Shown here: positions 13,761 to 29,231 of the stretch, one piece after another
Position numbering within the stretch: the first letter of the stretch is position 1
Layout: the number at the start of each line of letters is the position of its first letter
Origin: Vasconcelosia minhoensis LEGE 07310
Lineage (GTDB): Bacteria; Cyanobacteriota; Cyanobacteriia; Phormidesmidales; Phormidesmidaceae
Direction: 5' to 3'
DNA: 47,678 nucleotides
NCBI RefSeq assembly: GCF_015207255.1
Contig: NZ_JADEXG010000043.1
Span: forward strand, 1-47,678
Notes under the pieces: model-generated
Seen by the model: only the letters and a program-made list of their open reading frames with translations
The model's database searches: none
What the model was told of the DNA's origin: nothing
Program-made: the position numbers and the translations under genes

Positions 13761-13790
13761 GTCTTCATCATATCTCCATTTTGTTTTGTT
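13761..13790 (+). promoter_or_regulatory. Shared FaRLiP promoter motif, copy upstream of psbA3
   Basis: GTCTTCATCA is followed by TATCTCCATTTTG, about 45-70 bases before the psbA3 start. Very similar sequences lie at 25803 (apc/psbO divergent region) and 27781 (psbV/chlF divergent region). It may bind the cluster regulator RfpB, which is inference. The whole 13627-13832 gap holds no gene. Confidence 0.45.
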
Positions 13791-13832
13791 CTAATGGCTT
13801 TGTCCATTTAGACAACTACATCTTGTAAATTC

Positions 13833-14912
13833 ATGACTACCGTTCTCCAACGTCCAGATTTATCCCCGTGGGATAGATTCTGTAATTGGGTCACAAGTAC
13901 TGAAAATCGGCTCTATGTGGGCTGGTTTGGCGTCTTGATGATTCCCCTGCTCGGCGTCTCCATAACCGTTTTTGTCACTGCCTTTATCGGAGCGCCGCCC
14001 GTCGATATTGACGGCATTCGCGAACCGCTTTCGGGTTCGTTGCTCTACGGCAATAACATTATCACGGCGGCTGTCGTTCCCACATCCAACGCCGTTGGCC
14101 TCCATTTTTATCCAATTTGGGAGGCTGCTACCCTAGATGAATGGCTTTACAACGGCGGTCCCTACCAGATGATCGCTTTCCACTATATTCCCGCTTTGCT
14201 CTGCTATATGGGGCGAGAGTGGGAGCTGAGCTATCGTTTGGGCATGCGTCCCTGGATTTGTGTGGCCTACTCTGCCCCTGTCGCAGCGACGACTTCCGTA
14301 TTTCTGATTTATCCCATCGGTCAGGGCAGCTTTTCTGATGGCTTGCCCATGGGGATTAGCGGCACCTTCAACTTTATGTTCGTCTTCCAGGCAGAGCATA
14401 ATATTTTGATGCATCCGTTTCACATGTTAGGGGTTGCAGGGGTGCTAGGTGGCTCGCTGTTCTCGGCGATGCACGGATCTTTGGTGACCTCCAGCCTGGT
14501 GCGTGAAACTACCGATGCCGAATCTCAAAACTATGGTTACAAGTTCGGTCAGGAAGCAGAAACCTACAACATCCTCGCTGCCCACGGTTATTTTGGCCGC
14601 CTGATCTTTCAATATGCCAGCTTCAATAACTCGCGCTGGCTGCACTTTTTCCTAGCGGCCTGGCCGGTGGTGTGCATCTGGCTAGTTGCCTTGGGCATCA
14701 GCACGATGGCGTTTAACCTCAACGGCTTTAACTTCAATCACTCCGTTCTAGATTCGCAAGGTCGGGTGTTGCCAAGCTGGGCTGACGTCCTCAACCGAGC
14801 TAGCCTAGGTTTTGAAGTGCTGCATGAGCGCAATGCCCACAATTTTCCCCTGGATTTAGCCAGCGGTGAGCCAACGCCAGTGGCGCTACGGGCTCCTGAA
14901 ATCCAGGCTTAA
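13833..14912 (+). CDS. psbA3: Far-red photosystem II D1 protein
   Basis: A 359-residue D1 reaction-centre protein of normal length with five membrane helices. It keeps the oxygen-evolving ligands: the Asp of GSFSDGLP, the Glu of VFQAEHNIL, the C-terminal HERNAH, and the DLA cleavage site. It is thus a working water-oxidising D1 and not the chlorophyll f synthase, which is at 28065. It has Glu at the position that tunes pheophytin ([12 protein letters not shown]). The gene stands alone at the left end of the cluster, with its own motif-bearing promoter and terminator, and should replace the white-light D1 in far-red light. Confidence 0.93.
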
Positions 14913-14939
14913 TGCTTAGCTGAAGCATCTAAGGCTAAG

Positions 14940-14966
14940 AGCGCCTTCCAAAGAAGGCGCTTTTCT
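14940..14966 (+). terminator. Rho-independent terminator after psbA3
   Basis: The 9-bp stem AGCGCCTTC / GAAGGCGCT has a CAAA loop and is followed by TTTTC. It lies 28 bases past the psbA3 stop. Confidence 0.85.
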
Positions 14967-15076
14967 GATCAGCTGATTAAGCTAGCCAAGTCCCCGCTCA
15001 CAGAATAAGTACCTGAGCATTGAAATTTACATAGGATCGAGAATTAAATAACTTGACCATTTGTGCATGTCTCGCG

Positions 15077-15160
15077 GCCCTCACCCCGGCCCTCTCCCCG
15101 GGGGAGAGGGAGCTAGATCCGGCCCCCTTCTCCCCCGGGAGAAGGGTTGGGGATGAGGGC
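15077..15160. repeat. Palindromic intergenic repeat with two nested hairpins
   Basis: The outer arms GCCCTCACCCC and GGGGATGAGGGC enclose two hairpins, CCCTCTCCCC/GGGGGAGAGGG and CCCTTCTCCC/GGGAGAAGGG. This type of C-rich intergenic palindrome is scattered through many cyanobacterial and other bacterial genomes. A simpler relative lies at 15376-15425. Confidence 0.75.
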
Positions 15161-15204
15161 TCGGGAGTTGTGCATCTTATTAAATCCTTGATCCATAAAA
15201 GGAT

Positions 15205-15285
15205 TTGTCATTCCGAGCAAGCGAGGAATCTCTCGAATGCTGATGCTTCAGGGTGAGATGCCTCGACCAGCTCGGCATGACATCA
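15205..15285. repeat. Dispersed intergenic inverted repeat
   Basis: The arms TTGTCATTCCGAGCAAGCGA and AGCTCGGCATGACA, with GAGGAATCTC and GAGATGCCTC inside them, form an imperfect long hairpin. The same kind of TCATTCCGAG...GGCATGACA element is common between genes in many bacteria. The gap between psbA3 and the DUF1257 gene (14913-15636) holds only repeats and terminators. Confidence 0.65.
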
Positions 15286-15375
15286 GACTTCGCTCTGCAA
15301 AAAGCATGTAATTAATTTTGGCTGACTACTTAGGCTGCCGCATATACACAGCTTCTGAAAGGTTAGCCGTGCGTA

Positions 15376-15425
15376 GCCCTCATCCTAAATCCTTCTCCCA
15401 AATCTGGGAGAAGGGGCTGGGGGAT
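15376..15425. repeat. Second C-rich palindromic intergenic repeat
   Basis: GCCCTCATCC, then CCTTCTCCCA/TGGGAGAAGG, then CTGGGGGATG. It has the same plan as 15077-15160 with a single hairpin. Confidence 0.6.
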
Positions 15426-15574
15426 GTAGAGCTTGCTCTTCCCGAAGGGTGGGCCATCTGCAATACTCTGCCATGCTCCGATTTGTGTATACACAGTAGC
15501 CCAGAACGGGAGAAGGATTAAGGCTTGTACAGCCTCAATTCTTCTTGCAGTAGAGCCAAAATATCGGGATGTCA

Positions 15575-15606
15575 GAAAAAAAGGCCCTCTCTCAAAGAGG
15601 GCCTGA
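15575..15606 (-). terminator. Rho-independent terminator at the end of the leftward FaRLiP operon
   Basis: Read on the minus strand, the stem AGGCCCTCT/AGAGGGCCT is followed by TTTTTTT. It lies 31 bases past the DUF1257 stop and closes the long leftward run of genes. Confidence 0.85.
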
Positions 15607-15636
15607 CTGTCACAGCATGACAACTTCATGACAACG

Positions 15637-16023
15637 TTATGAGCTCCAGCGCTGCACCACGACCCGGATGGAGCCGTCCTTTTGCTGCTGCTGCGCCGTG
15701 ACTTCAAAGCCCTGCCGAGCCGTCTCATTGACGATTTTCTGATAGGCATAGCGCTGGACGACCTGACTCAAGAATCCCTCTACCGATAGGGGCTGTTTCC
15801 AGAACTGGAGGTCGGCCACCAGGGCATATTCTTCACCGTTCCAAGCAAAGCCGATATCGTGGCCGTTGGGCTGCTCAATCACGACATTGGCGGTGCAGGT
15901 TTGGCCCTGATAGCCCTTGACCTGTCTAGGACCGGGTTTCCATTCAATCTCCAGGTCGGTGAGAGCCGCCTGAAGTTCTTCTAAATCGCGAATGCGAGTT
16001 TTGATATAGCTAAAATGTGACAT
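15637..16023 (-). CDS. DUF1257 (Ycf35-like) protein
   Basis: A 128-residue soluble protein starting MSHFSYIKTRIRDLEELQAA and containing DIGFAWNGEEYALVAD and FLSQVVQRYAYQKIV, the pattern of the DUF1257/Ycf35 family of cyanobacteria and plastids. Its biochemical role is unknown; family members are linked to photosynthetic organisms. It is the last gene of the leftward FaRLiP run, about 50 bases after the small membrane protein gene and followed by a strong terminator. It may therefore be a far-red-specific paralog. A basic and polar C-terminus ends in VVVQRWSS. The family call is good, the function open. Confidence 0.75.
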   Translation of the reverse strand: MSHFSYIKTRIRDLEELQAALTDLEIEWKPGPRQVKGYQGQTCTANVVIEQPNGHDIGFAWNGEEYALVADLQFWKQPLSVEGFLSQVVQRYAYQKIVNETARQGFEVTAQQQQKDGSIRVVVQRWSS

Positions 16024-16073
16024 GGCGGTACAGCTCTTCTAGTGGGATTGACTGCGATGTGGGATCGGAGGCA

Positions 16074-16220
16074 TTATTCCTGATCGGCGGGGTAAGCCTT
16101 GTAAGAAAGCAGGACAAAGGCGACGCAGCCAATCACTAATCCCGCTATTCCCAAAAAAACTCCGCTGGCGGTAGCGCCAAACTGGCCTTCGCCGTAGGCT
16201 AAATAAAACAGGTAGGGCAT
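16074..16220 (-). CDS. Unnamed 48-residue single-helix membrane protein in the FaRLiP operon
   Basis: The ATG at 16220 is preceded by GAGGAAG at seven bases, a strong ribosome-binding site. The product starts MPYLFYLAYGEGQFGATASG, has one hydrophobic helix (VFLGIAGLVIGCVAFVLL) at about residues 21-38, and ends SYKAYPADQE. It does not match the small PSII or cytochrome b6f subunits I can recall (PsbI, J, K, L, M, T, X, Y, Z, Ycf12, PetG, L, M, N). Lying between psbH2 and the DUF1257 gene, it is a candidate far-red-specific small subunit or assembly helper of photosystem II; this is inference. Confidence 0.72.
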   Translation of the reverse strand: MPYLFYLAYGEGQFGATASGVFLGIAGLVIGCVAFVLLSYKAYPADQE

Positions 16221-16299
16221 GGTTCAACTTCCTCGCATGGTGATCTTAAAGGATAAAAGAGAGCGGCGAGAGCCAGCAGTCTAGCCGATGTCGGGAGGG

Positions 16300-16530
16300 T
16301 CAAAAAGAGGTAAAAACCGGATTTTCTCGATTTACATTGACGCCTTCTAGCATGATCGAGCCGTTGTAGATCTGCAAGATGATCAGCATAAAGATCAGCA
16401 GCAAAACCAGCAGCACAGCCATGATTGGGGTGGTGCCCCAGCCCGGCGAAACGCGACCGGCTTCCGAATTTAGCTTTCTCAGCGCGTACTGAATCGGCGC
16501 TTTATTTTTTGAGACATATTTTTGCTGCAT
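16300..16530 (-). CDS. psbH2: Far-red photosystem II PsbH
   Basis: The ATG at 16530 ([20 protein letters not shown]) is preferred to the longer frame since it gives the expected length of 76 residues. The core [20 protein letters not shown] and a single membrane helix ([20 protein letters not shown]) are the PsbH signature. PsbH binds near CP47 and affects the quinone side of PSII. It has a slightly longer N-terminus and C-terminus than the usual form. It follows psbB2 after a hairpin that may act as a partial terminator. Confidence 0.9.
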
Positions 16531-16564
16531 GGGTGACCTTTTGTTTGGTAGAGGACAAGAACTG

Positions 16565-16611
16565 AAAAACATTCATGTAGAGATACTCGGTTGTGTACCT
16601 CTACATGAATG
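16565..16611 (-). terminator. Hairpin with T-run between psbB2 and psbH2
   Basis: The 13-bp perfect stem CATTCATGTAGAG / CTCTACATGAATG has a 16-base loop. On the minus strand it is followed by TTTTTC. It could end or reduce transcription before psbH2, or protect the psbB2 message. Confidence 0.7.
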
Positions 16612-16637
16612 CAGCGATCGTTAAGAGGTAGATCAGT

Positions 16638-18173
16638 CTATGAAATGGTCGTCGTTTGCCGGGTGGTGGGGTCGCCTACTTTTTGGAAATAGCCCCACTC
16701 TACCTGTTCGATATTCAGCGCCGGATCGACCCCCGAGAAGACATCTTGGAAGAGGGCCCGCAGACCGTGCCAGATATGGCCAAAGAACCAGACCAGGGCA
16801 AAGCAGGCGTGGAAGAAAGCAAAGAAGCCGCGATTGCTGGTTCTAAAGGCCCCGTCGGAGTCGTAGACCGTACGGTCAAACTCAAAGGGCTGGCCCAGCT
16901 GGGCTTTGCGGGCATACTTTTTCACCTCCTGAGGGTCAGTGAAGGTCTGGCCGTCGAGGGCGCCGCCGTAGAAGCTGACGCTCAGGCCCGTCTGCTCGAA
17001 GCTATATTGTGAATCGGCCTGGCGGAAGGGGATATCTGCCCGAACAATGCCCTGCCGGTCGGTCAGCACAACGGGAAAGTTTTCAAAGAAGTTGGGCATG
17101 CGGCGGACGGTCAGCTCTCGATCGGCTTGGTCTTTGAAGACGGGGTGACCGAGCCAGCCGGTCGGCAGGCCGTCGCCGTCTACCATCCGACCGACGCGGA
17201 AGAGGCCGCCCTTGGCGGGACTGTTGCCGACATAGTCGTAGAAGGCCAGCTTAGCGGGAATCGCCGACCAGGCTTCGGATGGGCTCTTGCCCTGCTCCAG
17301 TCCATTCTGAACCCGGCGGCTGATCTCTTTTTGAAAATAGGCCTGGTCCCACTGGTAGCGGGTCGGCCCCCAGAGCTCAATCGGGTTGGTTGCCGTACCG
17401 TACCACATGGTACCGGAGGCAATGAAACCAGCCGCGAAGAAGACGGCTAGGCTGCTGGCGAGGGCACCCTCAATGTTGCCCATCCTCAGCGCCTGGTAGA
17501 GGTACTGGGGAGGCCGCACAAAGATATGGAACAGTCCCCCAATGATCACCACGATGCCCAGGGCAATGTGATGGGCGACGACCCCGCCAGGATTCTGCGG
17601 GTCAAAGCCAGCGGCTCCCCATTCGGGAGCGACGCCCTGGATGTGGCCGGTCAGTCCATAGGGGTCGGAAACCCACATCCCTGGCCCGAAGACGCCGGTG
17701 AGGTGGAAGGCCCCAAAGCCAAAACACAGCAGCCCCGCCAAGAGTAAATGAATGCCAAAGACCTTGGGCAGGTCGATTACCGGCTCGTCGGTTTTGGGAT
17801 CGAAGAAGGTGGCAACATCCCAGTAAACCCAGTGCCAGCAGGCGGCAAGGAATTCTAGACCGGAGAAGACGATGTGCGCGATCGCAACCGCTTCAAAAGT
17901 CCAAAGCCCCGGGTCGGCAAAGGTTTCTCCGGTGACGCTCCAGCCCTGCCAGGAGTTGGTTACCCCCAGGCGAGACACGAACGGCATTAAAAAGCAGCCC
18001 TGCCGCCACATCGGATTCAAGACCGGGTCGCTGGGGTCATAGCGGGATAGCTCAAACAGCAGCATTGAACCGGCAAATCCAGCGCAGAGCGCATTGTGCA
18101 TTAAATGCACCGCAATCAGTCGTCCCGGATCGTTTAAGACAGAGGTGTGAACGCGATACCAAGGCAGTCCCAT
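16638..18173 (-). CDS. psbB2: Far-red photosystem II CP47 antenna protein
   Basis: The ATG at 18173 ([19 protein letters not shown]) is the universal CP47 start; the longer frame adds 80 residues that overlap psbC2 and are not homologous. The 511-residue protein has six membrane helices with chlorophyll-binding His pairs such as VVAHHIALG and the large lumenal loop before [19 protein letters not shown]47 is the inner antenna next to D2. It lies 55 bases after psbC2 in the leftward run, and should carry chlorophyll f sites in far-red light. Confidence 0.93.
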
Positions 18174-18228
18174 TGAGTTCTTCTCCTGGTTTTTGTCGTT
18201 GTTTTGATGAGCCTTGCTCGGCGGCGGA

Positions 18229-19677
18229 TCAGTCCGACCGCAGGCTGGGATCGATTGGCGGCATTGAGAGCACGGGCTCATTTTCGCGGTCAATGCCGGT
18301 CTCAAAGCCAGCGGCGGTCGCCCTAGCCCGCCCGGCGTGCCAGAGGTGGCCCACCAGGAAAAAGAAGGCAAAAATGAAGTGAGCCGAGGCCAGCCAGGTG
18401 CGGGGCGAGACAAAGTTAAAGGCGTTGGTCTCTGTCGCTAACCCGGCGACGGAGTTGAGCGACCCCAGCGGCGCGTGGGTCATATATTCCGCTGCGCGCC
18501 GAATCTGCCAGGGCTGAATGTCTTTCTGAAGCTTCTCCAGGTCTAGGCCGTTGGTGCTGCGCAGGGGCTCAATCCAGGGCGCTCGGGCATCCCAAAAGCG
18601 CATGGTCTCGCCGCCAAAGATGATTTCTCCGGTGGGCGAACGCTGTAGGTACTTACCCAGACCGGTGGGTCCCTGAGCCGCCGCGACATCGGCCCCCAGG
18701 TTTTGGTCGCGGGCTAGAAATACCAGCGACTGGGCCTGAGACGCCTCTGGCACGGTGGGACCATAGAAGACGCTGGGGTAGACCGTATTGTTGAACCAGA
18801 TAAAGGCGGTGGCGATGAACGCCTGCCCGGCTACATTGCCCAAGCTTTGGGACAGGTAGGTTTCGCCCGTCCAGGGAAAGAGGTTGTAGGTCCAGCGCAG
18901 AGGCGGTACCAAAATATGCCAGATGCCCCCGAGAATCAGAATTGAGCCAATCCAGATATGGCCGCCGATCACGTCTTCCAGATTGTTAACGCCGACAATC
19001 CAGCCGCTGCCACCAAAGGGGCTGCGGAACAGATAGCCAAAGATGATGCGCGGGTCGAGGGTGGGATTCGTAATCAGCCGGACGTCGCCGCCGCCGGGTG
19101 CCCAGGGGTCGTATAGGCCGCCCCAGAACATCGCCTTGGCGGCGAACAGCAGGGCAAATACTCCCAGAATCAGGATATGAAACCCGAGAATCTGCGCCAC
19201 CTTGGCCTTATCGGTCCAGTCAAACTGGAAAAACCCAGAGAGTTTCTCCGGTCCTTGGATGGCATGGTACATGCCGCCCACGCCGAGAAAGGCCGAGCCG
19301 ATCAGGTGAGCCACGCCGATGGCGAAAAAGGGAAAGATGTTGGCAATTTCGCCGCCGTGGCCCACGCCGATGCCGAGGCTGGCGATGTGGGGCATAAGAA
19401 TGCATCCCTGCTCATACATCGGCTGGGACAGATTGTAGTGGGAGACTTCAAAGAGCAGCATACCGCCTGCCCAGAGCGCAATCAGCCCGGCGTGGGCCAC
19501 GTGAGCCCCTAAAAATCGGCCAGACAGCTCGGTGGTTATGAAGCGGGCATTGCCCGCCCACCAGGCGAAGCCACTGGAGGTTTCATCATAGCCCGCGCGG
19601 GCCGGGGCGATCAGCGACCCCGCCTCAGTGGGCAGGGTAATGGCCGCATCTGGAATGGTTTCGATGGGTGTTTCCAC
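18229..19677 (-). CDS. psbC2: Far-red photosystem II CP43 antenna protein
   Basis: A GTG start at 19677 is preceded by AAGGAGG at eight bases. The 482-residue protein shows six helices and the lumenal GGETMRFWD motif, whose Glu and Arg (354 and 357 in usual numbering) serve the Mn cluster. It thus supports water oxidation. Unlike the usual psbD-psbC pair, whose genes overlap, this one begins 64 bases after the psbD3 stop with its own ribosome-binding site, so translational coupling has been lost. Confidence 0.93.
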
Positions 19678-19741
19678 AGGGGAACCCTCCTTAAAAATGG
19701 ATTATCTTGTTGTTAAAACTGTCGGGTCTCTGAGGCCCAGC

Positions 19742-20800
19742 CTATTCGGAAAAACCGCGCGGCAGTACTTCTTCGGGAAAGACAAACTGCTTTGCAGGCT
19801 GATCCATCTCCGCCATCCAGGCTCGGACGCCTTCATTCAGCAAGATATTCTTGGTATAAAACGTCTCGAACTCGGGGTCTTCCGCCGCTCGGATTTCCTG
19901 GCTGACAAAGTCGTAGGCCCGCAGGTTAAAGGCCAGACCAATCATGCCAATAGCGCTCATCCATAGGCCCACAACCGGCACAAACAGCATGAAGAAATGC
20001 AGCCAGCGCTTGTTGGAAAAGGCAATCCCAAAAATCTGAGACCAGAAGCGATTGGCCGTCACCATCGAATAGGTTTCTTCGGCCTGGGTGGTGGCAAAGC
20101 CCTTGAAGGTGTTCTTCCCTTCGGTGTCTCTAAACAGCGTATTTTGCACCGTCGCCCCGTGAATCGCACAGAGCAGGGCCGCCCCCAGCACTCCCGTCAC
20201 GCCCATCATGTGAAAGGGATTCAAGGTGTAGTTATGAAATCCCTGGAAAAATAGCAGGAACCGGAAAATTGCAGCGACCCCAAACCCCGGCCCAAAGAAC
20301 CAGCTCGACTGGCCCAGCGGATAGATTAGAAACGTCGCGACAAAGACCGCAATCGGGGCCGAAAACGCGATCGCGTTATAGGGCCGAATCCCCACCAGCC
20401 GGGCAATCTCAATCTGCCGCAGCATGAAGCCCATCAGCGCCAGTACGCCGTGCAGCGCCGTAAAGGTCCACAGGCCGCCGATCTGGCACCAGCGAACAAA
20501 GTCCCAGTTGGCCTCTGGCCCCCACAGCAGCAGCAGCGAATGCCCCATGCTCTCTGCCGGGGTGGATACGGCCACGGTGAGAAAGTTGCAGCCTTCTAAA
20601 TAAGAGCTCACCAGCCCGTGGGTATACCAGGAGGTGACAAAGGTGGTACCGGTAAACCAGGCCCCAATCGCCAGGTAGGAACAGGGGAACAGCAGCAGCC
20701 CCGACCAGCCGATAAACACAAAGCGATCGCGCTTCAGCCAGTCGTCCAATATCCCTGCCCAGCTTTTAGCGGGCCTGAGCGCGCCCATTGAAATTGTCAT
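19742..20800 (-). CDS. psbD3: Far-red photosystem II D2 protein
   Basis: A 352-residue D2 reaction-centre protein starting [20 protein letters not shown]. It keeps the chlorophyll/quinone region [20 protein letters not shown], the redox Tyr in [13 protein letters not shown], and the non-haem iron His residues. Length and helices are normal for D2. An AAAGGA sequence precedes the ATG. It leads the psbD3-psbC2-psbB2-psbH2 stretch, downstream of the allophycocyanin genes, and should pair with PsbA3 in the far-red reaction centre. Confidence 0.93.
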
Positions 20801-20852
20801 AGCTCTGTCCTTTTGTTCAATACATCCAATTCAAAGTGTTTCCTGAAGCGGC

Positions 20853-21383
20853 TTAAACGGGCTCACTTTCGCCAGGGCCGTCGTTCATGTAATAGGGTGG
20901 TCCCGGCAGGGCCAGCTCTTGAATAATTTCGTCAAAGTAGGGAATAATCGCCGCCGCTTCGGCCTCATCGAGCAGCGCGATCGCTTCGGCCTTGAGGCAG
21001 CGCAGGTACTGCAAAATGTTGGCGAGGGGAATGCCGATATTGGTGTATAGCTCCTTCATCCCCACCAGGCCGATCTCGCGCAGTGGCCGATCGTCTCCGG
21101 CCAGCAGGCAGTAGCTAATCAGGCGAATATACCAGCCCATATCTCGCTTTGCTGCCCCAGTTTTACGGCGGTCGCCGCTGTTGCTGGGAGTTTTGGGGCA
21201 GACCTGCCAAAACTTTTGAGTGCCGCGATCGACGATGGCTTGAGCCTTTTCTTCTAACGTTCTAGCCAAGCGAATCCGCTCTTCCCCCGTTTTGCAGAAG
21301 CTGCGAATCGTCCGCAGCTCCCCCGGCGTCGGATAGCGCAGCTCTTCGTCGGCGTTGAGAATGACCTGTTTAACGATACTCAT
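20853..21383 (-). CDS. Far-red allophycocyanin alpha-type subunit (ApcD group) lacking the bilin cysteine
   Basis: The ATG at 21383 (MSIVKQVILNADEELRYPTP) is preferred; the longer frame begins at a TTG. The 176-residue protein follows the ApcD-type fold, but the bilin site that reads TASCQRD in its paralog at 25119 reads TGAAKRD here, with no Cys. Any phycocyanobilin would have to be held without a covalent bond, as known for ApcE2. A tail of about 15 residues (GPPYYMNDGPGESEPV) extends beyond the usual end. It follows a 68-codon frame that overlaps its start by 14 bases. Its place beside apcE2 may make it ApcD5, but I cannot confirm the numbering. Confidence 0.85.
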   Translation of the reverse strand: MSIVKQVILNADEELRYPTPGELRTIRSFCKTGEERIRLARTLEEKAQAIVDRGTQKFWQVCPKTPSNSGDRRKTGAAKRDMGWYIRLISYCLLAGDDRPLREIGLVGMKELYTNIGIPLANILQYLRCLKAEAIALLDEAEAAAIIPYFDEIIQELALPGPPYYMNDGPGESEPV

Positions 21384-21576
21384 GGCTTTCAACTTTGGGA
21401 TAGATTTGCACGCCCCCGAACCAGCCGATATGGATGCGATAGCTAAAGGGATGGGTCAAACGATGGACCAGACGGTAGCGGGGCCTTTGGGCCAAGAGAG
21501 CATCTAAGTCCGGCGGCACCCAGCAGTCTTGCTTTCTAGAGCATTCATCGGGGGAATTCGGTTGATTTTGAATCAT
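21370..21576 (-). CDS. Hypothetical 68-residue protein between apcE2 and the ApcD-type gene
   Basis: The frame starts at an ATG 40 bases after the apcE2 stop and overlaps the next gene by 14 bases. The product contains DCWVPPDLDALLAQRPRYRL and FSYRIHIGWFGGVQIYPK. It is not recognised; the basic, aromatic second half could form a small linker-like fold such as CpcD/ApcC, but no match is claimed. There is no good ribosome-binding site, so coupling with apcE2 would be needed. It may be a real small linker or a chance frame. Confidence 0.4.
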   Translation of the reverse strand: MIQNQPNSPDECSRKQDCWVPPDLDALLAQRPRYRLVHRLTHPFSYRIHIGWFGGVQIYPKVESHEYR

Positions 21577-21615
21577 TTTGAACTTTTAATCGGGTGACAG
21601 GAGTATGGGGTTGAG

Positions 21616-24015
21616 TTAGTCCTCATTGGTTTCAGGCGGCGCGATGGCGGGCGGCGCGGCGACGGCAACAGATTTATCGGCGTCCTGTGAAACCTCGGGT
21701 AGGTTCTCAGCTAGAAGCCGATTGGACGGTTGTTCTCCATCTGGTGCTGTAGAAGCGGCTGCGGGCTGCTCGTCAGCTTTAGCGGGCTGCTCGTTGTCGT
21801 CAGGCTGAGCGGGCGGGGCCATCGTCGCCGTCACCGAGCCAGCGCCATCGGCCCGGTGGCCCATCATCACCCGCCCTGCCGTAGGCGGATTGACCCGGGG
21901 TTTGGACCAGGCAACCGGCCCCTGGGGCGATCGCATGGCCAGCCCGCGCGGCGTCACATAGCGCTCGTAGGGCACCGTATCTTCGCCAAAGACCTCGGCG
22001 TATTCGGCGCTATCTACGATGGCATCGATCAGCGCATAGAAGCCCTGACGACCGCAGATGTCGTAGTACCGATTCAGCTCTCGCCGTCCGTAGGTGGGGC
22101 GTCCCAACAGCCGCCGATGGATGTATTCGACTGCCTTGGTCACGTAGAGCTGCTCCCAGTAGAGGCGACGAAATGCTGCCGACTGAGCCAGCTGGCGCAC
22201 AAACTCCCGCAGGGTGATCAGTCCCCCTTTGAGCTGGGACTCGGCAATGGAATGACGCTGGCTCTCGAAGACCTCACGCCCAAACACCTGCCGGTAGGTA
22301 GCTAAAATCACTTCTTCAGGAGAATGGCGGGCGCTGTTGAAGCTGACCGGGGCAGAGTCGTCTTTCCGGCGGTAGACGGGTTCCAGGCTGTGGCCGTTGT
22401 TCAGGGAAGGGGGCGACAGCGACCAGACCTGTTCGGCTGAGCCGGGAACTCGTCCCAGGTCGGTGTGGCCGTGGGTGCCGTTGCCAGCGTCATGGGAACG
22501 GCCTTTGCGATCGCCACTGCTGATTAAAATTCGGCGGCTGTCTTCGCTGAAGTGAGCAGGCTGGGCCTTGGGATCTCGGTTTTCTTGAGGGAAGATAGCG
22601 CCAAACTGGATCTCCAGCGGGTCATTGCCCTGGCCATAGGGGTGCTGATTGGGCAGCGGCTGTTGATATCCGGCGAAAGTCGTGACAAACTGGGGCACCT
22701 TGCGCATCGGCGCGCTGTATTTGAATAGATCTAGCTGCGGTCCCCAGTTGCGGCATTCTTGCGCCTCCATCCCCAGGCCCCGGAGGTAGGGAACGGTCTC
22801 TTCGCCAAAGTAGTCGGCATATTCCTGAGAGTCGATGAAGGCATCTACCAGGGCCGGGAAGCCCCGTTCAGAGATCACGTCGAAGTAGGTTTGAAATTCC
22901 TCCAGGCAGCTCAGTCCCCGTCCCAGGAAGTGGCGACAGCCCAGCTCAATGCTGCGGCTAATCGTAAAGGGCTCGTAGTAGAGCTGCCGGTAGAGCCGCG
23001 ACTTTCCCAGCTGGCGAATGAACTCTTTCATCGACCCCTGTCCGCTTTTGACCTGCGAGGCCAGCTCTGTGACCGCCGCTCCGTAGGGATGGGTAATATC
23101 GCGCTCAAAGACCTGCCGATAGGCAGCCCGCACCGCCTCGTTTTTTTCAATATCGGGCAGGTCTGGCTTCATCACCCAGCGCGGCCTGGGGCTGTCACTG
23201 TCGCCATAGCTCTGGGGCAGCTCCAGCCCCTGGTGATGTTTTGAAACCCCGGCCCGCAGCCGATGGGCGGGCTTTTCCACCCAGTAGTCGGTAATCAGCA
23301 CGTCGAAATATCGCCGCACCAGGGCCGCTGCGGTTTCAGAGGGAAAATAGGTTAGGGCCTTCCACTGCATTTCGCGCAGAGCGACGACGGTGGCGAGGGT
23401 GACGTCTTCGGGAATGACGCCCCGCAGCCCGCGGGTGTTGACGCTGATGATGCTGGTGTCCCCAGCGACGATCGCGTAGGTGACATAGCGCAAAAACCAG
23501 CTCAGGTCGCGCATGGAGCGCTTCATCCGGACGTTGCCGTAGCGGGAGATATCGATGGTGCGAAAGCTGCTGGGAACATTGGGTTTGCCCCCGGCGAGCA
23601 GTCCCTTAAACCATTCCACGATACCGTTGACAGAATCGATCTGGTAGCCGCCCTGATAGCCGCTGGAACTCTGCCGTTTAGCTCTGGCAGCGGCAGAGAG
23701 ATAGTCTTCCCCCACGTAGTAGCCCGAACCCGGCATCCCTAGCGGCTCTTCGGGCCGCTCTAGATAGGCCATGGCGTTGCCGCCAACAAAGATCCGATTG
23801 GCCCCGGCGGCCACGATCTTTTCAGCCTGCTGAGTCAGAACCTGGGCGATCTCCAGCCGCCTCAGCCCGGTGCTAAAGAAGGCCGAAAGCTGCCGGGTCT
23901 CACTGTGGTTCAGATAGCGATCGCGCTGGCAGGCCTCAACAATCACAGCCGTGGGCACGGTGTGATAGGGCTGCGGATGGACGGCTGGGCTGCCTCCGTT
24001 GATCCGATCGGTCAT
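21616..24015 (-). CDS. apcE2: Far-red phycobilisome core-membrane linker with two linker repeats
   Basis: The 799-residue protein has an N-terminal bilin-binding lobe (residues 20-250) interrupted by the PB loop. The usual chromophore Cys is replaced, and VIPEDV at residues 200-205 marks the far-red ApcE2 type that holds phycocyanobilin without a covalent link. Two linker (REP) domains follow at about 290-415 and 565-690, each with the AYRQVFERD or TYRQVFGRE start and a DSAEYAEVFGED-type end. Two repeats predict a bicylindrical core. The tail from about 730 is rich in Pro, Ala, Glu and Gln and unlikely to be folded. It anchors the far-red core to the membrane. Confidence 0.93.
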   Translation of the reverse strand: MTDRINGGSPAVHPQPYHTVPTAVIVEACQRDRYLNHSETRQLSAFFSTGLRRLEIAQVLTQQAEKIVAAGANRIFVGGNAMAYLERPEEPLGMPGSGYYVGEDYLSAAARAKRQSSSGYQGGYQIDSVNGIVEWFKGLLAGGKPNVPSSFRTIDISRYGNVRMKRSMRDLSWFLRYVTYAIVAGDTSIISVNTRGLRGVIPEDVTLATVVALREMQWKALTYFPSETAAALVRRYFDVLITDYWVEKPAHRLRAGVSKHHQGLELPQSYGDSDSPRPRWVMKPDLPDIEKNEAVRAAYRQVFERDITHPYGAAVTELASQVKSGQGSMKEFIRQLGKSRLYRQLYYEPFTISRSIELGCRHFLGRGLSCLEEFQTYFDVISERGFPALVDAFIDSQEYADYFGEETVPYLRGLGMEAQECRNWGPQLDLFKYSAPMRKVPQFVTTFAGYQQPLPNQHPYGQGNDPLEIQFGAIFPQENRDPKAQPAHFSEDSRRILISSGDRKGRSHDAGNGTHGHTDLGRVPGSAEQVWSLSPPSLNNGHSLEPVYRRKDDSAPVSFNSARHSPEEVILATYRQVFGREVFESQRHSIAESQLKGGLITLREFVRQLAQSAAFRRLYWEQLYVTKAVEYIHRRLLGRPTYGRRELNRYYDICGRQGFYALIDAIVDSAEYAEVFGEDTVPYERYVTPRGLAMRSPQGPVAWSKPRVNPPTAGRVMMGHRADGAGSVTATMAPPAQPDDNEQPAKADEQPAAASTAPDGEQPSNRLLAENLPEVSQDADKSVAVAAPPAIAPPETNED

Positions 24016-24081
24016 GGCGTTTCTAAAGCTCCAAATCTAAAAATTTCACTAGGTCTTGCCTAGGGCTTGCCTGGGGCTGTG

Positions 24082-24561
24082 CTAGGGCACCAGCCCCTGA
24101 ATCAGGTAGTCAAAATAGGGACCCACCTCAGCTGCGTCCTCCAGGGTCAGCATGTCCAGGGTGACCTCCTTGAGACAGCGCATACATTCCGCGACGTTGC
24201 GGAGGGGAATTTCTAAAGAGAGATACATCGCTTTGCCCCCCCTAACGCCGCTGGCCTCAATCGGGTCGATATCGCCTACCACCACGGCATAGGTAATCAG
24301 GCGCATAAACCAGGCCTGGTCGCGCAGGCAGGACGCCTGGAACCGCTCGCTGCCGCTGTTGCTAGGGGTAATCGCGCAGCGTTGCCAAAACCGCTGGCTG
24401 CCTTTTTCAACAATCGCCTGCACGTTGTTCGTCAAAATGGAGGCAATCCGCAAACGCTGCTGCCCGTCGTGGAAGAAATGGTCAATGGTTTCCAATTCTC
24501 CGCGACTGAGATAGCGCGCCTCTCGATCGGCATTGGCAATCGCCTGAGTAATAATGCTCAT
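24082..24561 (-). CDS. Far-red allophycocyanin alpha-type subunit (ApcD group)
   Basis: The second ATG, at 24561, is chosen: AGGAA lies eight bases upstream and it gives the family start MSIITQAIANADREARYLSR. The 159-residue protein keeps the bilin Cys in FQASCLRDQAWFMRL and has the VVVGDIDPIEASG helix. It is one of three ApcD-like genes in the run and sits between apcB2 and apcE2. These subunits form the red-shifted allophycocyanin, absorbing beyond 700 nm, with ApcB2. By gene order it is ApcD2 or ApcD3; only an alignment would decide. Confidence 0.88.
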   Translation of the reverse strand: MSIITQAIANADREARYLSRGELETIDHFFHDGQQRLRIASILTNNVQAIVEKGSQRFWQRCAITPSNSGSERFQASCLRDQAWFMRLITYAVVVGDIDPIEASGVRGGKAMYLSLEIPLRNVAECMRCLKEVTLDMLTLEDAAEVGPYFDYLIQGLVP

Positions 24562-24604
24562 GATCATGGTTCCTAAAATGAGGTGGGGGAATGGGGCGCG
24601 ATCG

Positions 24605-25090
24605 CTAGCTCAGGCCCGAACAAATGTGATCAAAGAAGGTGCCGATCTCTCGGCCCGCCTCTGCTCCCACCATCTCGGTGGTCACTTCTTTCATCGCCTG
24701 TACCGCCCGCACCGTCGCACCTACCGGCACGCCCAGGGAGTTATAGGTCTCCTTCAGACCGTTGAGCACGCGTTCGTCTAAAATGGACGGATCGCCCGCT
24801 AGCATGGCGTAGGTGCCATAGCGGAGGAAATAGTCCATATCGCGGACGCAGGCGGCATAGCGGCGGCAGGTATACATGTTGCCGCCGGGGGCGGTGATGT
24901 CGGTGTAGAGCAGCGCTTTGGCCACTGTTTTGGTCACAATCATTGAGGCATTGGCGCTGATGGTCATGGCCGCCCGCGCCCGCAGGTCGCCGCTGCGAAA
25001 ATAGGATTGCAGATTCTCTAGGGAAGCATCGTCTAAATACTTACCCTGTACGTCAGAGGAATTGATCAGGGTGGTGATAGCGTCTTGCAT
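24605..25090 (-). CDS. apcB2: Far-red allophycocyanin beta subunit
   Basis: A 161-residue beta subunit with the canonical bilin site [20 protein letters not shown] and the following [26 protein letters not shown] precedes the ATG. The conserved methylated Asn segment and C-terminal DHICSGLS are present. It should pair with all three ApcD-type subunits of this run. It lies between two of them, the compact order expected for a single transcript. Confidence 0.92.
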
Positions 25091-25118
25091 GGTTGTCTCC
25101 TTTTAGATTAATTTCCGC

Positions 25119-25595
25119 CTACAGCAGCGAATGGATGATCAAATCAAAGTACGGTGCAACTTCCTGCGCATCTTCTTCACTCAGGACGGCCAGGGCTTCT
25201 TCCTTCAAACAGCGCATACATTCGGCAATATTCCGAATTGGAATTTCTAAATTGTTGTACATCTCCTTAATGCCGACCGTACCAATCTCTTCCAGGGGGC
25301 GCTCACTCCCGGCCAGAATAGAATAGGCGATCAGGCGCACATACCAGCCCTGATCGCGCTGACAGGAGGCCGTCTTGCGATCGTTGCCGCTGTTACTCGG
25401 CGTGTTAGGGCAGCGCTCCCAAAATTTTTGACTACCATTTTGAACAATACGCTGTTCGTTTTCGGCCAGCGCTTTGGCAATCCGAATTCGCTGTTCTCCG
25501 GTTTTGACAAAATCTTGAAAAATTCGAAGTTCTTTTGGCGCGGGATAGCGGGCCTCGCTATCGGCGTCAAGAATTAGCTCTGTGACCAGACTCAT
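25119..25595 (-). CDS. Far-red allophycocyanin alpha-type subunit (ApcD group), first gene of the leftward run
   Basis: The ATG at 25595 (MSLVTELILDADSEARYPAP) is preferred, with AAGGGAGA upstream; the longer frame adds 24 unrelated residues. The 158-residue protein keeps the bilin Cys in RKTASCQRDQGWYVRL. It opens the leftward series that runs without a large gap to 15637, so its promoter, in the 25596-25946 interval, likely serves the allophycocyanin and PSII genes. It is ApcD2 or ApcD3 by context. Confidence 0.88.
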   Translation of the reverse strand: MSLVTELILDADSEARYPAPKELRIFQDFVKTGEQRIRIAKALAENEQRIVQNGSQKFWERCPNTPSNSGNDRKTASCQRDQGWYVRLIAYSILAGSERPLEEIGTVGIKEMYNNLEIPIRNIAECMRCLKEEALAVLSEEDAQEVAPYFDLIIHSLL

Positions 25596-25802
25596 TGAGA
25601 TTTCTCCCTTATGAACGACGCGATTGATGAACTCGGGCTTGATAGCTTCTGTAAGTTTCAGAGCCAAGATCTCTAGAAAGGTTTAAATCCAAAGGGTTAT
25701 CTCAGCTCAGGCTTGAAAGTAGAATAGGCAACAAAAATGGAGAACCTATGAAAACCTGAAAACGGCTTAACTAAAGTTAACAGTCGGAAAACAACAGACC
25801 AG

Positions 25803-25829
25803 TTCTTCATCAGTTCTTCAGCTTTTTCT
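25803..25829. promoter_or_regulatory. Shared FaRLiP promoter motif, copy in the apc/psbO divergent region
   Basis: TTCTTCATCAGTTCTTCAGC then TTTTTCT matches the motif upstream of psbA3 and chlF. The 25596-25946 interval has no gene and must hold the promoters of both the apcD-apcB2-apcE2 run and psbO. The motif lies about 120 bases before psbO and 210 before the first apc gene. Confidence 0.42.
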
Positions 25830-25946
25830 GATTCAATTAATATCGCCAGTTGGCATCTATCTTTAGAGGCTATTTTACCCAGCTTGAAACAGCCCAACGG
25901 CCCGAGCAACGTGACAGCTGCCGAACCCACAAATTTGGATGGAAAG

Positions 25947-26774
25947 ATGAAATATCGCAGTTTAATGACATTTTTTTTAGTCTTATGTTTAGGCATCCTT
26001 ACCGCCTGCAGCAGCAGTCCAAAGCTGGAAGGCTCGCTGAGCTATGACGATATTAAAGGAAGCGGGCTGGCGAACAGCTGCCCCCAGCTCCCAGAAACCA
26101 GCATGGACTCGATCAATATCGGGGCCGATCGGTCCTATCAGCTCAAAGCGCTGTGCCTACAGCCCCAGACATTTGCGGTCAGGCGATCGGCCCTGATGAA
26201 GCGGCAGGAGAGTAAATTTGTCCCGAGCAAGCTGCTCACCCGGGAAAGCTCTACCCTCGATCAGATCAGCGGTTCGCTTAAAATTGGCCCCGACGGAAAT
26301 TTGACCTTCGTCGAGCAGGGTGGATTTGACTTCCAGCCGATCACGGTGCAGCTTCCCGACGGCGAGCGGGTACCGCTGCTGTTTACGGTCAAGGGTCTGG
26401 TGGCGAAAAACCAGGACGCAGCGGCCAGCCTCTCCCCCTCGACTCGCCTGGTGGGAACCTTTGAAGTGCCGCCCTACCGCACCTCTAGCTTCATTGATCC
26501 GAAAGGTCGGGGGCTGACGATGGGCTACGACTCAGCCGTGGGGCTGCCCGTTCAGGCAGACCGGGAAGACTTTTCTCGCCAGAACAACAAGGCTTTTGAC
26601 ATTGGTCAGGGCCACATCTCGCTACAGGTCAACCGGGTCAACCGCGCTACTGGTGAGATTGCCGGCTGGTTTGAGAGCGAACAGCCTTCTGATTCCGACT
26701 TCGGGTCTAAAGAACCGATGGCCGTCGAAATTCGCGGCCAGTTCTACGGGCGGATTGAGTCAGAAATTGCCTAG
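25947..26774 (+). CDS. psbO: Photosystem II manganese-stabilising protein PsbO, paralog inside the FaRLiP cluster
   Basis: The ATG at 25947 begins a lipoprotein signal with lipobox LTAC (Cys21). The 275-residue protein shows the PsbO hallmarks LSYDDIKGSGLANSCPQL, GGFDFQPITVQLPDGE, GRGLTMGYDSAVGLP and GEIAGWFESEQPSDSDFG. The two disulfide Cys are present (45 and 70). PsbO caps the lumenal side of PSII and stabilises the Mn cluster. It is not part of the commonly described FaRLiP gene set, so this copy may be a far-red-tuned version. The divergent apc promoter region lies directly upstream. Confidence 0.92.
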   Translation: MKYRSLMTFFLVLCLGILTACSSSPKLEGSLSYDDIKGSGLANSCPQLPETSMDSINIGADRSYQLKALCLQPQTFAVRRSALMKRQESKFVPSKLLTRESSTLDQISGSLKIGPDGNLTFVEQGGFDFQPITVQLPDGERVPLLFTVKGLVAKNQDAAASLSPSTRLVGTFEVPPYRTSSFIDPKGRGLTMGYDSAVGLPVQADREDFSRQNNKAFDIGQGHISLQVNRVNRATGEIAGWFESEQPSDSDFGSKEPMAVEIRGQFYGRIESEIA

Positions 26775-26838
26775 TGCGATCGCGGTTACGCCATCGGCTC
26801 AATCCTAAAATGACGCTAACTTGAGAGCACCCATCGCT

Positions 26839-26997
26839 ATGAAACCAGAACAGCTAACGTTGGAACAAGAGCTAGAGCTGCAAATCATCAGAACGCAGGC
26901 CCGAGGACTCTCGCTCGATCAGGCCCAGGACTACATCATTGCGGTTACCCGGCAGATCATGGTCAAAGAGAATCTACTTAGACACCTGCTCAAGTAG
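26839..26997 (+). CDS. nblA: NblA-family phycobilisome degradation protein
   Basis: A 52-residue helical protein starting MKPEQLTLEQELELQIIRTQ and continuing ARGLSLDQAQDYIIAVTRQI, ending LLRHLLK. This is the NblA layout: short N-terminus, the LS.DQA segment, and a C-terminal Leu that binds phycobiliproteins. NblA delivers phycobilisomes to the Clp protease. Placed 64 bases after psbO and in the same direction, it would let far-red light remove the white-light phycobilisomes while new cores are made. A clear terminator follows. Confidence 0.85.
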   Translation: MKPEQLTLEQELELQIIRTQARGLSLDQAQDYIIAVTRQIMVKENLLRHLLK

Positions 26998-27041
26998 AGC
27001 CGCCGCCTCAATTTAGGTCAATAAAACGTCCTCCCATGCTG

Positions 27042-27075
27042 AGTCCCCAAGGTTTTAACCCTGGGGACTTTTCTT
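27042..27075 (+). terminator. Rho-independent terminator after nblA
   Basis: The stem AGTCCCCA / TGGGGACT is followed by TTTTC, 45 bases past the nblA stop and just before the convergent psbV stop. Confidence 0.85.
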
Positions 27076-27097
27076 GTGAGCGTTTACAGGTTGGCCT

Positions 27098-27610
27098 CTA
27101 TCTGTTCGGTTTGCCGCCGCTCCACTGGTCACCGACAATTTTGGGCTGAACCAGGATGTAACCCGCGATCGCGGTTAAATCGTCCTCGGTTAAATCCCGC
27201 ATCTTCGGAAAGTATTCCGCCCGCGCAGTAGACGGATGCAGCTCGGCAAGCGATTGCAGCCCATCGTAGGTGGTAGGATGCTCCAGATAATCGACGATGC
27301 TTTCGACGCTGACGCGCGGCGGGGTAGCTAAGGCCAGCGTACGAGGTCCCAGATCGATGTCAGGATTAGTTTTGGTGCCTCCATCCACGTGGCACTGGGC
27401 GCAGCTGCTGTTGAACTGGCGCTGTCCCTTCGCCAGCTGTTCTGTACTCAGGGTAATTTGCTCGCCGGTATCGTTCAGTGGAACGGTCAGCGTCGCCGGG
27501 TCAATTTCGACCGCCATGGCCGGGGTTATCCAAGCAGCGGCCGAAATTAGCATCGCCATAATAGAGCAGGATAAATATCTGATCAAAGTCTTTTTGAAAC
27601 AGAGCGTCAT
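27098..27610 (-). CDS. psbV: Cytochrome c550 (PsbV), paralog inside the FaRLiP cluster
   Basis: A 170-residue secreted c-type cytochrome. A signal peptide ends at AMA (residue 33). The mature part has the haem site CAQCH (residues 70-74), the TLALATPPR segment and the His at mature position 92 in LAELHPS that is the second iron ligand in PsbV. The C-terminus ILVQPKIVGDQWSGGK also fits PsbV. It is a lumenal extrinsic subunit of PSII that supports chloride and calcium retention. Convergent with nblA and divergent from chlF, it shares the chlF control region. Confidence 0.9.
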   Translation of the reverse strand: MTLCFKKTLIRYLSCSIMAMLISAAAWITPAMAVEIDPATLTVPLNDTGEQITLSTEQLAKGQRQFNSSCAQCHVDGGTKTNPDIDLGPRTLALATPPRVSVESIVDYLEHPTTYDGLQSLAELHPSTARAEYFPKMRDLTEDDLTAIAGYILVQPKIVGDQWSGGKPNR

Positions 27611-27780
27611 CTTGATTAATCTCCGAAAAACTGTTGGTTTAATGACTTGAAAATGTCACACCTTCCCATCTGTAAATAAACAATATAGCAATTCTTGAGC
27701 TGACAGATAACAGATTACATTTAGTTAGGTTTGGGGGATAGTTTAGGCCGTGTTTGTATCTTTTGTTTAAGGGCTGTGCC

Positions 27781-27810
27781 GTCTTCATCAGTTCTCCATT
27801 TTTCTTTCCT
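27781..27810 (+). promoter_or_regulatory. Shared FaRLiP promoter motif, copy in the psbV/chlF divergent region
   Basis: GTCTTCATCAGTTCTCCATT then TTTCTTTCCT closely matches the psbA3 copy. It lies about 255 bases before chlF and 170 before psbV in the opposite direction. The gap 27611-28064 holds no gene but contains this motif and a small hairpin at 27867-27887. Confidence 0.45.
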
Positions 27811-27866
27811 AACGTTGCCCTAATAACCGAGATAGGTCGTTTCTGAAAGCGCCCCTTGCCTCTCCT

Positions 27867-28064: not shown

Positions 28065-29231
28065 ATGACACAGTTTAGGTTTGGTAGAGCGCTCGACTTC
28101 GATCGTTCTGACCAGCTAAAAACGCCCGATATTCAAAGACATAGCGGCGTCACAATTTCCCTGCCGGCGCTGTGGGAGCGCTTTTGTCGATGGGTCACCA
28201 GCACTGAAAACCGCATCTACGTCGGCTGGTTTGGGGTGATTATGTTCCCGACCCTATCTACCGCTGCTGTCGTGTTTGTGCTGGCCTTTATTGCGGCTCC
28301 GGCCGTCAATATGGATGGCACTGGCAACATGATTTCCGGTTCCTTGCTCGACGGCAACAACCTGATTACAGCTGCTGTTGTACCTTCTTCGGCGGCGCTA
28401 GGGCTACACTTTTATCCCATCTGGGAAGCCGCTTCAATGCAGGAGTGGCTCGTCAACGGCGGCCCCTACCAGCTGATTGTGCTACATTTTCTGATTGGCA
28501 TCATCGCCTATCAGGACCGGGAATGGGAGCTGAGCTATCGCCTGGGGATGCGGCCCTGGATTTCGCTCACCTTTACGGCTCCTGTGGCCGCGGCGGTTTC
28601 GGTGCTGTTGATCTATCCGATAGGCCAGGGCAGCTTTGCCTCGGGGATGCCCCTGGGGATCTCGGGCACCTTCACCTTTATGATGCAGTTTCAGGCCGAT
28701 CACAACATTCTCGCCAATCCGCTCCACCAGGTCGGCGTAATCGGCGTTTTGGGCGGCTCTCTGCTCTGCGCCGCCCACGGCTCACTGGTGACGTCAGCGG
28801 TGTTTCGTCAGCCCCAGCAGTCTGATCATCCAAAGCGGTTTCAGTCAGACCGGGGTGAAAAGGTCTACAGCTTTGACCACATCCAGAACTACCAGCAGAA
28901 ACTGCTCTGGCCGGGAGCAACCTTTAGATCCTCGCGATCTCTGCACTTTTTCCTGGCAGCCTTTCCCGTCGCGGGCATCTGGTCGGCGGCGCTCGGGGTC
29001 GATATGACCGCCTTTGGATTTGACCAGTTTTCTCTCAATCGAACGGTGGGCGGCTCTATTCAGAAAACGGTCGTGCCGACCTGGGTGGATGTGGTGAATC
29101 GAGCTAATCATGGCCTGCAGTCGGTCGAAGAATCGGATGAGGCGATGTTTCCCGTCTTTTTAGGAGACGCCGGCTTTGACAGCGAACGGCGTATCTCCTG
29201 GAACGCGATCGCGCAGCGCAATCCTCCCTAG
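28065..29231 (+). CDS. chlF: Chlorophyll f synthase (super-rogue D1)
   Basis: The ATG at 28065 is preceded by CAGGAG at seven bases; the longer upstream frame is not homologous. The 388-residue protein has D1-type helices with [14 protein letters not shown] and redox Tyr in [12 protein letters not shown]. The Mn ligands are gone: Ser replaces Asp170, Asp replaces Glu189 (QADHN), and the C-terminus lacks HE, H and D-x-A. It carries the YQDREWEL site, whose Gln-Asp pair is typical of ChlF. It thus makes chlorophyll f by a light-driven reaction and is not a PSII subunit. It leads into the PSI genes. Confidence 0.95.

Follow-up and report, generated by a model that had tools for sequence, protein, structure and literature searches.

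This work describes a short regulatory box that occurs four times in the far-red light photoacclimation (FaRLiP) cluster of Vasconcelosia minhoensis LEGE 07310, on a stretch of 47,678 nucleotides from contig NZ_JADEXG010000043.1 (referred to here as the window). Each copy consists of an 11-bp direct repeat, TCTTCAT-N4-TCTYCAT, followed by T-rich sequence and then by a TANNNT-type hexamer that starts 10 bp after the second half-site. Distantly related cyanobacteria carry the same signal ahead of their FaRLiP genes. We consider it highly probable that this motif forms the operator half of a promoter that depends on an activator, namely RfpB, a response regulator encoded in the same cluster. The role of RfpB in activating far-red light photoacclimation had been recognized by 2015. 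An earlier sequence-only annotation (the original prediction) had proposed the motif as a candidate RfpB operator, and that proposal is supported by a PhoB-type repeat matched by a PhoB-type DNA-binding domain, covariation between the box and the recognition helix, and the transcripts of rfpB mutants. As the reader of the box, RfpB is well supported but unproven.

Four boxes in the FaRLiP cluster

The cluster in the window comprises psbA3, psbB2/C2/D3, apcE2 and other apc genes, psbO2, psbV2, chlF, psaA2/B2/L2/I2/F2, rfpB, rfpA, and rfpC. Gene families were assigned with Pfam and NCBIfam, and the far-red genes are named as in the FaRLiP literature and the original prediction. The motif had been placed at 13761, 25803, and 27781; the 17-base sequence TCTTCATCANNTCTNCA is present without mismatch on the plus strand at 13762, 25804, and 27782, one base to the right of those figures. 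These are the only three exact copies in the 5.26-Mb genome (161 contigs). Two places match with 1 mismatch, and 42 places match with up to 2 mismatches, versus 16 for a reversed control pattern. Alone, the 9-mer TCTTCATCA has 4 copies in the window against 0.48 expected, a count reached in 0 of 100 shuffles. The exact 9-mer was nevertheless rejected as the signal: its fourth copy, at 32559, lies inside psaB2 and is without the second half. Having described the unit as this 9-mer plus a tail, the original prediction overlooked the direct repeat, the fixed −10 hexamer, and the apc copy.

The sites accordingly number four rather than three, with the minus-strand apc box (25754-25737) having been missed even though it scores highest. 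What had been read as a site common to apc and psbO is a plus-strand box at 25804 that points at psbO2, while apc, on the minus strand, is served by a separate, divergent minus-strand box. A single bidirectional operator between apc and psbO2 was rejected on the same grounds, as two boxes are present, each with its own −10. Similarly, the site assigned to psbV and chlF is a plus-strand box at 27782 that points at chlF; the psbV2 side is without a box, both here and in relatives (0/11). To score the window, we used a held-out profile of 40 columns and 64 sites from other genomes, which was seeded with the window repeat but excluded the window sites. The four boxes score between 16.3 and 43.3 (Table 1), and the next-best place in the window scores −3.1, in agreement with the claim that the motif is absent from the psa and rfp gaps. 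The chlF box probably heads a chlF-psaA2-psaB2-psaL2-psaI2-psaF2 unit, and the unit of the apc box perhaps extends through psbD3-psbC2-psbB2.

Occurrence across genomes and placement at transcription-unit heads

ChlF orthologs clear of PsbA (471 bits or more; the rest scored about 448 or less) were found in 31 of the 388 genomes of a class search, that of V. minhoensis included. The comparison covered the cluster regions of the 30 other chlF genomes and 17 named loci, some of which belong to the same genomes; the named loci include Nodosilinea, Chlorogloeopsis fritschii PCC 6912, Fischerella, Calothrix, and Pleurocapsa. The window was excluded from the dyad count, profile training, and leader counts described below, and the close relatives CalN1, Fthe7521, G036, and G283 were excluded from the dyad count, the profile, the leader counts, and the covariation totals. 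In an unseeded 5+5 dyad count over 351 upstream regions of other FaRLiP genes, TTCAT-N2-GTTCT came first, with 32 regions, compared to maxima of 6, 8, and 7 regions in three Markov controls.

A sequence-only Infernal model (R1), with E-values from a shortened calibration, was built from 62 non-window sites. In the V. minhoensis genome, the chlF, apc, and psbO2 boxes rank first (E-values in Table 1). All 30 other chlF genomes were matched, each with a best E-value of ≤4.1e-4, partly by construction, as 28 of the 30 had also been scanned for training sites. Pattern counts in the V. minhoensis genome, the model ranking, and the expected number of places reaching a score of 31 (1.8e-4 per genome, independent-base model) all put the motif above chance frequency. 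The 64 matches at E ≤1e-3 in the 30 genomes lie at chlF (29), psbA3 (14), the lead apc gene (12), psaA2 (3), psbO2 (2), the rfpB-rfpA gap (2), and non-FaRLiP places (2). Fifteen of the 64 fall on stretches that had not been scanned for training. Thirteen of these lie at the front of FaRLiP genes, either on a different contig or at distances of up to 1.1 Mb; psaA2 of G385, for example, is ∼270 kb from chlF, and in G031 an apc operon is 1.1 Mb from it. One of the 13 (in G036) duplicates the site of the close relative G027. The other two adjoin RfpB/A/C-like genes (L101, in G224) or an RfpC-like gene (L102, in G236) and were rejected as new unlinked regulon members. Save for two sister-type sites, the 64 matches show no recurrence of any unlinked gene beyond the known far-red set. 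This is consistent with the view in the literature that the chlorophyll d synthase, still missing, is encoded inside the cluster (PMC6424891). For matches weaker than E 1e-3, 10 stretches were fetched.

Placement was assessed with leave-own-genome-out profiles at a threshold of 15, counting genes (a few genomes contribute more than one). A gene was called a leader if it had an upstream gap of ≥250 nt, an oppositely oriented neighbor, or no neighbor. Boxes were found at 29/30 chlF leaders versus 2/5 internal chlF genes, at 17/20 versus 4/7 for psbA3, at 14/17 versus 0/13 for the lead apc gene, and at 5/8 versus 1/23 for psaA2; for psbO2, 4/9 leaders carry a box. Because the counts for leaders and internal genes differ, the box marks the heads of transcription units and follows rearrangements of the cluster. 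By the same profiles, boxes were found at 0/23 rfpB, 0/25 rfpC, and 1/23 rfpA genes. In two genomes (G124:C7:37040 and G332:C286:13726), a box lies between rfpB and rfpA, ∼0.5 and ∼0.9 kb before rfpA, respectively, which suggests local autoregulation of the sensor.

RfpB as the candidate reader

RfpB has the domain order receiver (REC), winged helix-turn-helix (wHTH), Hpt, REC. In a sequence search of the PDB, its DNA-binding domain matched PhoB (E 9e-13), BaeR (E 1e-14), and DrrD. The Hpt domain (Pfam E 2e-9) lies between the winged helix and the second receiver; the published descriptions, in the portions that we drew on, list two receivers and a winged helix only. Genetic evidence comes from Chlorogloeopsis, in which rfpA, rfpB, and rfpC mutants lose the psaA2, psaB2, psbA3, psbA4, and apcE2 transcripts (PMC4658448). 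Most other far-red responses are independent of RfpABC (PMC6424891).

Further support comes from covariation of the box with the recognition helix. The usual RfpB helix reads TVT[AS]HI[KR]GLR, and four genomes (G169, G227, G325, and G332) hold a second copy with TVTVHIK[DE]LR. The psbA3 boxes of all four carry TTTA in both halves, as do the apc boxes of G325 and G332, and this V-type rfpB copy directly precedes the psbA3 box in each genome (L049, L099, L100, and L108). The chlF box of these genomes keeps TTCA in both halves, except in G227, where one half keeps it and the other is altered. Overall, TTTA in both halves was found in 9/15 boxes of genomes with the VHIK[DE] type, 0/8 boxes of three genomes with VHIK[GA], and 0/56 boxes of genomes in which [AS] was the sole type observed; single TTTA halves are present in all three helix groups. 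Fisher's test gives a P value of 6.7e-8 for 9/15 versus 0/56 and of 6e-5 by genome (5/6 versus 0/22), although these P values overstate the independence of the cases. That one genome can hold two helix types along with two subtypes of box suggests a split far-red regulon.

An alternative is that an RfpB-like REC-wHTH-Hpt-REC paralog reads the FaRLiP boxes and that RfpB acts indirectly through it. RfpB matches were found in 95/95 and 31/31 genomes, many of them full length, with ordinary OmpR-type regulators among them; the RfpB-like paralogs that were scanned share the domain order, and some have similar boxes nearby. Such paralogs, however, also occur in genomes that lack chlF, whose boxes lean to a different sequence, CTTCACaAGTTCCTCAg; in the four genomes named above, the altered FaRLiP boxes stand beside an altered copy of RfpB itself; and the RfpABC-dependent changes are mostly limited to the cluster (PMC6424891). 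We therefore regard a paralogous reader as unlikely and prefer RfpB.

Promoter architecture and proposed mechanism

Box bases that lie 11 positions apart are 79.5% identical, versus 15 to 50% at lags of 5 to 10 and 12 to 15. The −10 hexamer was evaluated on 60 seed sites picked by their half-sites alone, to avoid circularity. TANNNT begins exactly at +10 in 52 of these and at any other offset in at most 4; for 33 seeds lying elsewhere, 2 have it at +10. A −35 hexamer was sought as TTGACA at spacers of 16 to 18 bp, and the best match was 2/6 in 50 sites and 3/6 in 5, among the 55 sites with T....T at the −10 position. A sigma-70 promoter with a −35 was rejected given these matches of 2 to 3 out of 6 and a scan of 25690-28070, which gave no such promoter at the boxes. 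Three features of OmpR/PhoB-type operator-promoters are found together: 7+4+7 head-to-tail half-sites, a −10 at fixed distance with a poor or absent −35, and a Trans_reg_C winged helix in RfpB, the putative cognate regulator. For this family, 7-bp direct repeats separated by 4 bp are the usual arrangement (PMC4832192).

The T-rich stretch and the −10 at fixed spacing from the repeat, with no −35, could also be expected of a promoter for an alternative sigma factor in which the repeat is an activator-free upstream element, and far-red light does alter sigma-factor transcripts (PMC6424891). Even so, we find this explanation very improbable: in-register 11-bp direct repeats are characteristic of winged-helix proteins bound as a tandem dimer, the mutants show that rfpB is needed (PMC4658448), and the −10 is an ordinary TANNNT. 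Inherited drift among closely related promoters, or chance, has next to no probability and was rejected, as despite the close relatives among the genomes, it is contradicted by the dyad count, the held-out profile, the expected count, the boxes at different gene leaders in rearranged clusters, and the divergence of the flanks (in 29 chlF promoters, that of the window among them, similarity is confined to −40 to +40 around the box, with 25 to 28% identity outside).

Under the activator reading, two RfpB winged-helix domains would sit head-to-tail on the TCTTCAT-N4-TCTYCAT half-sites, in place of the absent −35, and bound RfpB would recruit RNA polymerase to the −10 hexamer 10 bp downstream. The far-red signal would pass from RfpA through RfpC to RfpB, whereupon the four boxes of the window would turn on chlF and the psa2 genes, the apc2 (perhaps also psbDCB2) genes, psbO2, and psbA3. 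The rfpB gene itself has no recognizable box here. RfpB binding, and activation through that binding, are inferred; the operon boundaries are likewise predicted.

Several observations weigh against this interpretation. The psbA3 box is the weakest of the four: it scores 10.8 under a stricter training set, it is absent from the Infernal listing, and at a similar distance from the gene, its counterparts in close relatives are degenerate (13.6 in G027, 4.2 in G022, and −1.3 in G051), being hardly recognizable in G022 and G051. With boxes at only 4/9 psbO2 leaders and 0/11 psbV2 genes, part of the cluster must be controlled in some other way. In far-red light, RfpABC increase the transcripts of their own genes as well (PMC6424891), which a boxless rfpB leaves unexplained, and FaRLiP genes are expressed by an rfpA mutant grown for long in far-red light (PMC6424891). 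The covariation is uncorrected for phylogeny, and the regulator tree of 57 sequences does not settle the number of V-type origins; CSU11, with a VHIKD copy and TTCA boxes, is an exception to the covariation; 7 boxes come from 5 genomes that contributed no RfpB sequence, with RfpB copies sampled incompletely; and the copy scored as RfpB for G028 (42% identity) is probably a paralog. Finally, related boxes in chlF-less genomes show that the box class is wider than RfpB and the far-red response.

Sister boxes outside FaRLiP

Of 50 genomes without chlF, 42 gave a match at E ≤1, and 6 matches in 4 genomes reached E ≤1e-3, in a search that ran with stricter filters than those of the FaRLiP genomes. 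Among the top 20 of these sister matches, which were selected by their likeness to the FaRLiP model, 19 have a profile score of >15; they lean to CTTCACaAGTTCCTCAg and keep the repeat, the T-run, and the −10. Three of the 20 (L125, L135, and L139) lie ≤3 kb from a long RfpB-like gene, and two more (L129 and L132) lie ∼4 and ∼6 kb from one, with RfpA/RfpC-like genes in between. The regulators at L125, L129, L132, and L135 have the REC-wHTH-Hpt-REC order. A paralog in the V. minhoensis genome itself (contig C4, L109) has the same domain order, with the Hpt just below the cutoff, and lies 0.4 kb from the fourth-ranked match in that genome. The box class thus probably belongs to a regulator family of which RfpB is the far-red member. 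Sister boxes lie upstream of genes that, judged by eye, resemble those for DnaK, a hydrogenase maturation protease, Hsp20, a universal stress protein, NrdG, and pentapeptide-repeat proteins, and they perhaps form a stress or low-oxygen regulon.

A broader scheme that joins these observations with the covariation is conceivable, and we put it forward tentatively, as something that may well prove wrong. In this scheme, each member of a REC-wHTH-Hpt-REC family would have its own 11-bp tandem box; in some FaRLiP strains, the second copy of a duplicated rfpB, its recognition helix changed, would have recoded the psbA3 and apc boxes (CTTTAG), with the chlF and photosystem I boxes keeping TTCAT; and a third box type would serve a sister regulon in non-far-red cyanobacteria. 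If true, far-red photosystem II and antenna genes on the one hand and photosystem I and chlorophyll f genes on the other would be two separately tunable subregulons.

Comparison with known systems

A close parallel is the pho box of Escherichia coli PhoB, which is likewise a tandem 11-bp repeat, CTGTCAT(A/T)4CTGTCAT (PMC4832192), lies 10 bp upstream of a TAN3T/A −10 (PMC1906773), overlaps the −35 region (PMC3348028), and is read by a regulator with the same DNA-binding fold as RfpB. The half-site here is TCTTCAT rather than CTGTCAT, however, and the spacer is n-R-G-T rather than A/T; unlike PhoB, RfpB is a REC-wHTH-Hpt-REC protein under a phytochrome kinase. The cyanobacterial SphR pho box also consists of tandem repeats with an 11-bp period, but its consensus is CTTAACCT, in at least three repeats (PMC1906773), and the box profile of 62 to 64 sites reads TCTTCAT instead of that consensus. 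The BaeR box of enterobacteria (consensus TTTTTCTCCATDATTGGC or TCTNCANAA, core CTNCA; PMC3799227) has its CTNCA/TCTCCAT core in common with the FaRLiP half-site, the recognition helices are SHIKNLRRKL in BaeR and SHIKGLRRKL in RfpB, and BaeR ranks with the best matches of known structure for the RfpB domain. The likeness concerns the core and the helix; the BaeR regulon and host are unrelated. The far-red promoter PchlF of Leptolyngbya JSC-1 (Liu et al. 2023) has the same gene and signal, with JSC-1 lying outside the named loci compared here; it is said to rely on rfpABC (PMC11782128, second-hand).

No description of the box was found in full-text literature searches; Liu et al. 2023 on PchlF, which was outside those searches, may hold one. 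Word searches of PMC4658448 and PMC6424891 returned no DNA motif or binding site for RfpB. Subject to Liu et al. 2023, the box is a new operator of the OmpR/PhoB-type kind. The 18-bp box and its −10 make RfpB binding, the regulon, and designed far-red promoters testable from Nodosilinea to Fischerella and Calothrix.

A second upstream element and further features

Within the conserved −40 to +40 stretch of the 29 chlF promoters, a second element with the consensus GTAACTTTTTTTGAAG is located at −26 to −10 from the box. The best match falls there in 27/29 promoters and is above the 99% null in 24/29. A looser form of it passes the 99% null at 2/11 apc and 2/14 psbA3 boxes. Its identity with the HLR1 site of RpaB was rejected as not convincing (12.07/16 matches versus 10.32 when shuffled); a second regulator may bind the element. 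Coordinates of all features are given in Table 1.

Table 1. Features of the window, with loci of sister boxes and CheY-like genes elsewhere
Feature	Position	Strand	Evidence
chlF box, TCTTCAT cagt TCTCCAT	27782..27799	+	Profile 40.2; E 1.0e-6 in own genome
chlF −10 hexamer TAACGT, 10 bp past box	27810..27815	+	Sequence; spacing as in 52/60 seed sites of other genomes
Upstream element TGTATCTTTTGTTTAAG before chlF box	27755..27771	+	Score 11.8 vs 99% null 11.4; position as in other genomes
apc box, TTTTCAT aggt TCTCCAT	25737..25754	-	Profile 43.3, best in window; E 1.3e-6
apc −10 hexamer TATTCT	25721..25726	-	Sequence; spacing
Possible upstream element TGTTAACTTTAGTTAAG between divergent apc/psbO2 boxes	25766..25782	-	Score 7.0, under 99% null 11.4; position fits
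psbO2 box, TCTTCAT cagt TCTTCAG	25804..25821	+	Profile 31.1; E 1.2e-4
psbO2 −10 hexamer TTCAAT	25832..25837	+	Sequence; register as in profile
psbA3 box, TCTTCAT cata TCTCCAT	13762..13779	+	Profile 16.3 (10.8 with stricter training set); unlisted by model R1
psbA3 −10 hexamer TCTAAT	13790..13795	+	Sequence, same register
psbA3 (far-red D1)	13833..14912	+	Photo_RC, Pfam
apc operon lead gene (allophycocyanin subunit)	25119..25595	-	Phycobilisome, Pfam; NCBIfam ApcA match under cutoff; start inferred within longer open reading frame
psbO2 (manganese-stabilizing protein)	25947..26774	+	MSP, Pfam E 4.3e-101
chlF (psbA4, chlorophyll f synthase)	28065..29231	+	Start inferred at 28065; longer open reading frame from 27960
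rfpB, response regulator REC-wHTH-Hpt-REC, proposed box reader	36138..38105	+	Pfam; PhoB-type domain by PDB sequence search
RfpB DNA-binding domain Trans_reg_C, residues 147-221, recognition helix DTVTSHIKGLRRKL	36576..36800	+	E 3.6e-21
Sister-box loci	L121-L140, L101, L102, L109 (G000:C4:7331-7362), L110-L112, L114, L115, L119	- (L109)	
CheY-like gene loci	L039 2353-2785, L043 ∼4015, L036 ∼8132, L038 ∼4381, L105 6163-6603		

The chlF start was chosen on the basis of ortholog alignments, which begin at residue 30 to 49 or about 67 to 70 of the longer open reading frame. In the tblastn gene search, the psbO2 query started one codon late and the psbB2 query started inside its open reading frame. 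Within the fetched regions, psbO2 is carried only by genomes of the window's family, and psbV2 (27098-27610) is carried by that family plus G203 and the named locus L045. A DUF1257 gene (15637-16023) near psbH2/psbB2 is kept in G007, G022, and G027 at 72 to 80% identity. One further genome (G044:C146:14240-16276) has a strong RfpB match (760.7 bits, 59%) and no ChlF above the ortholog cut.

Several FaRLiP clusters hold an extra CheY-like gene (37 to 49% identity to RfpC). In L039, the open reading frame scan showed no ATG-started frame for it. This gene has its own box in 5/6 cases, and far-red light may thereby induce a CheY-like receiver that feeds back on the relay.

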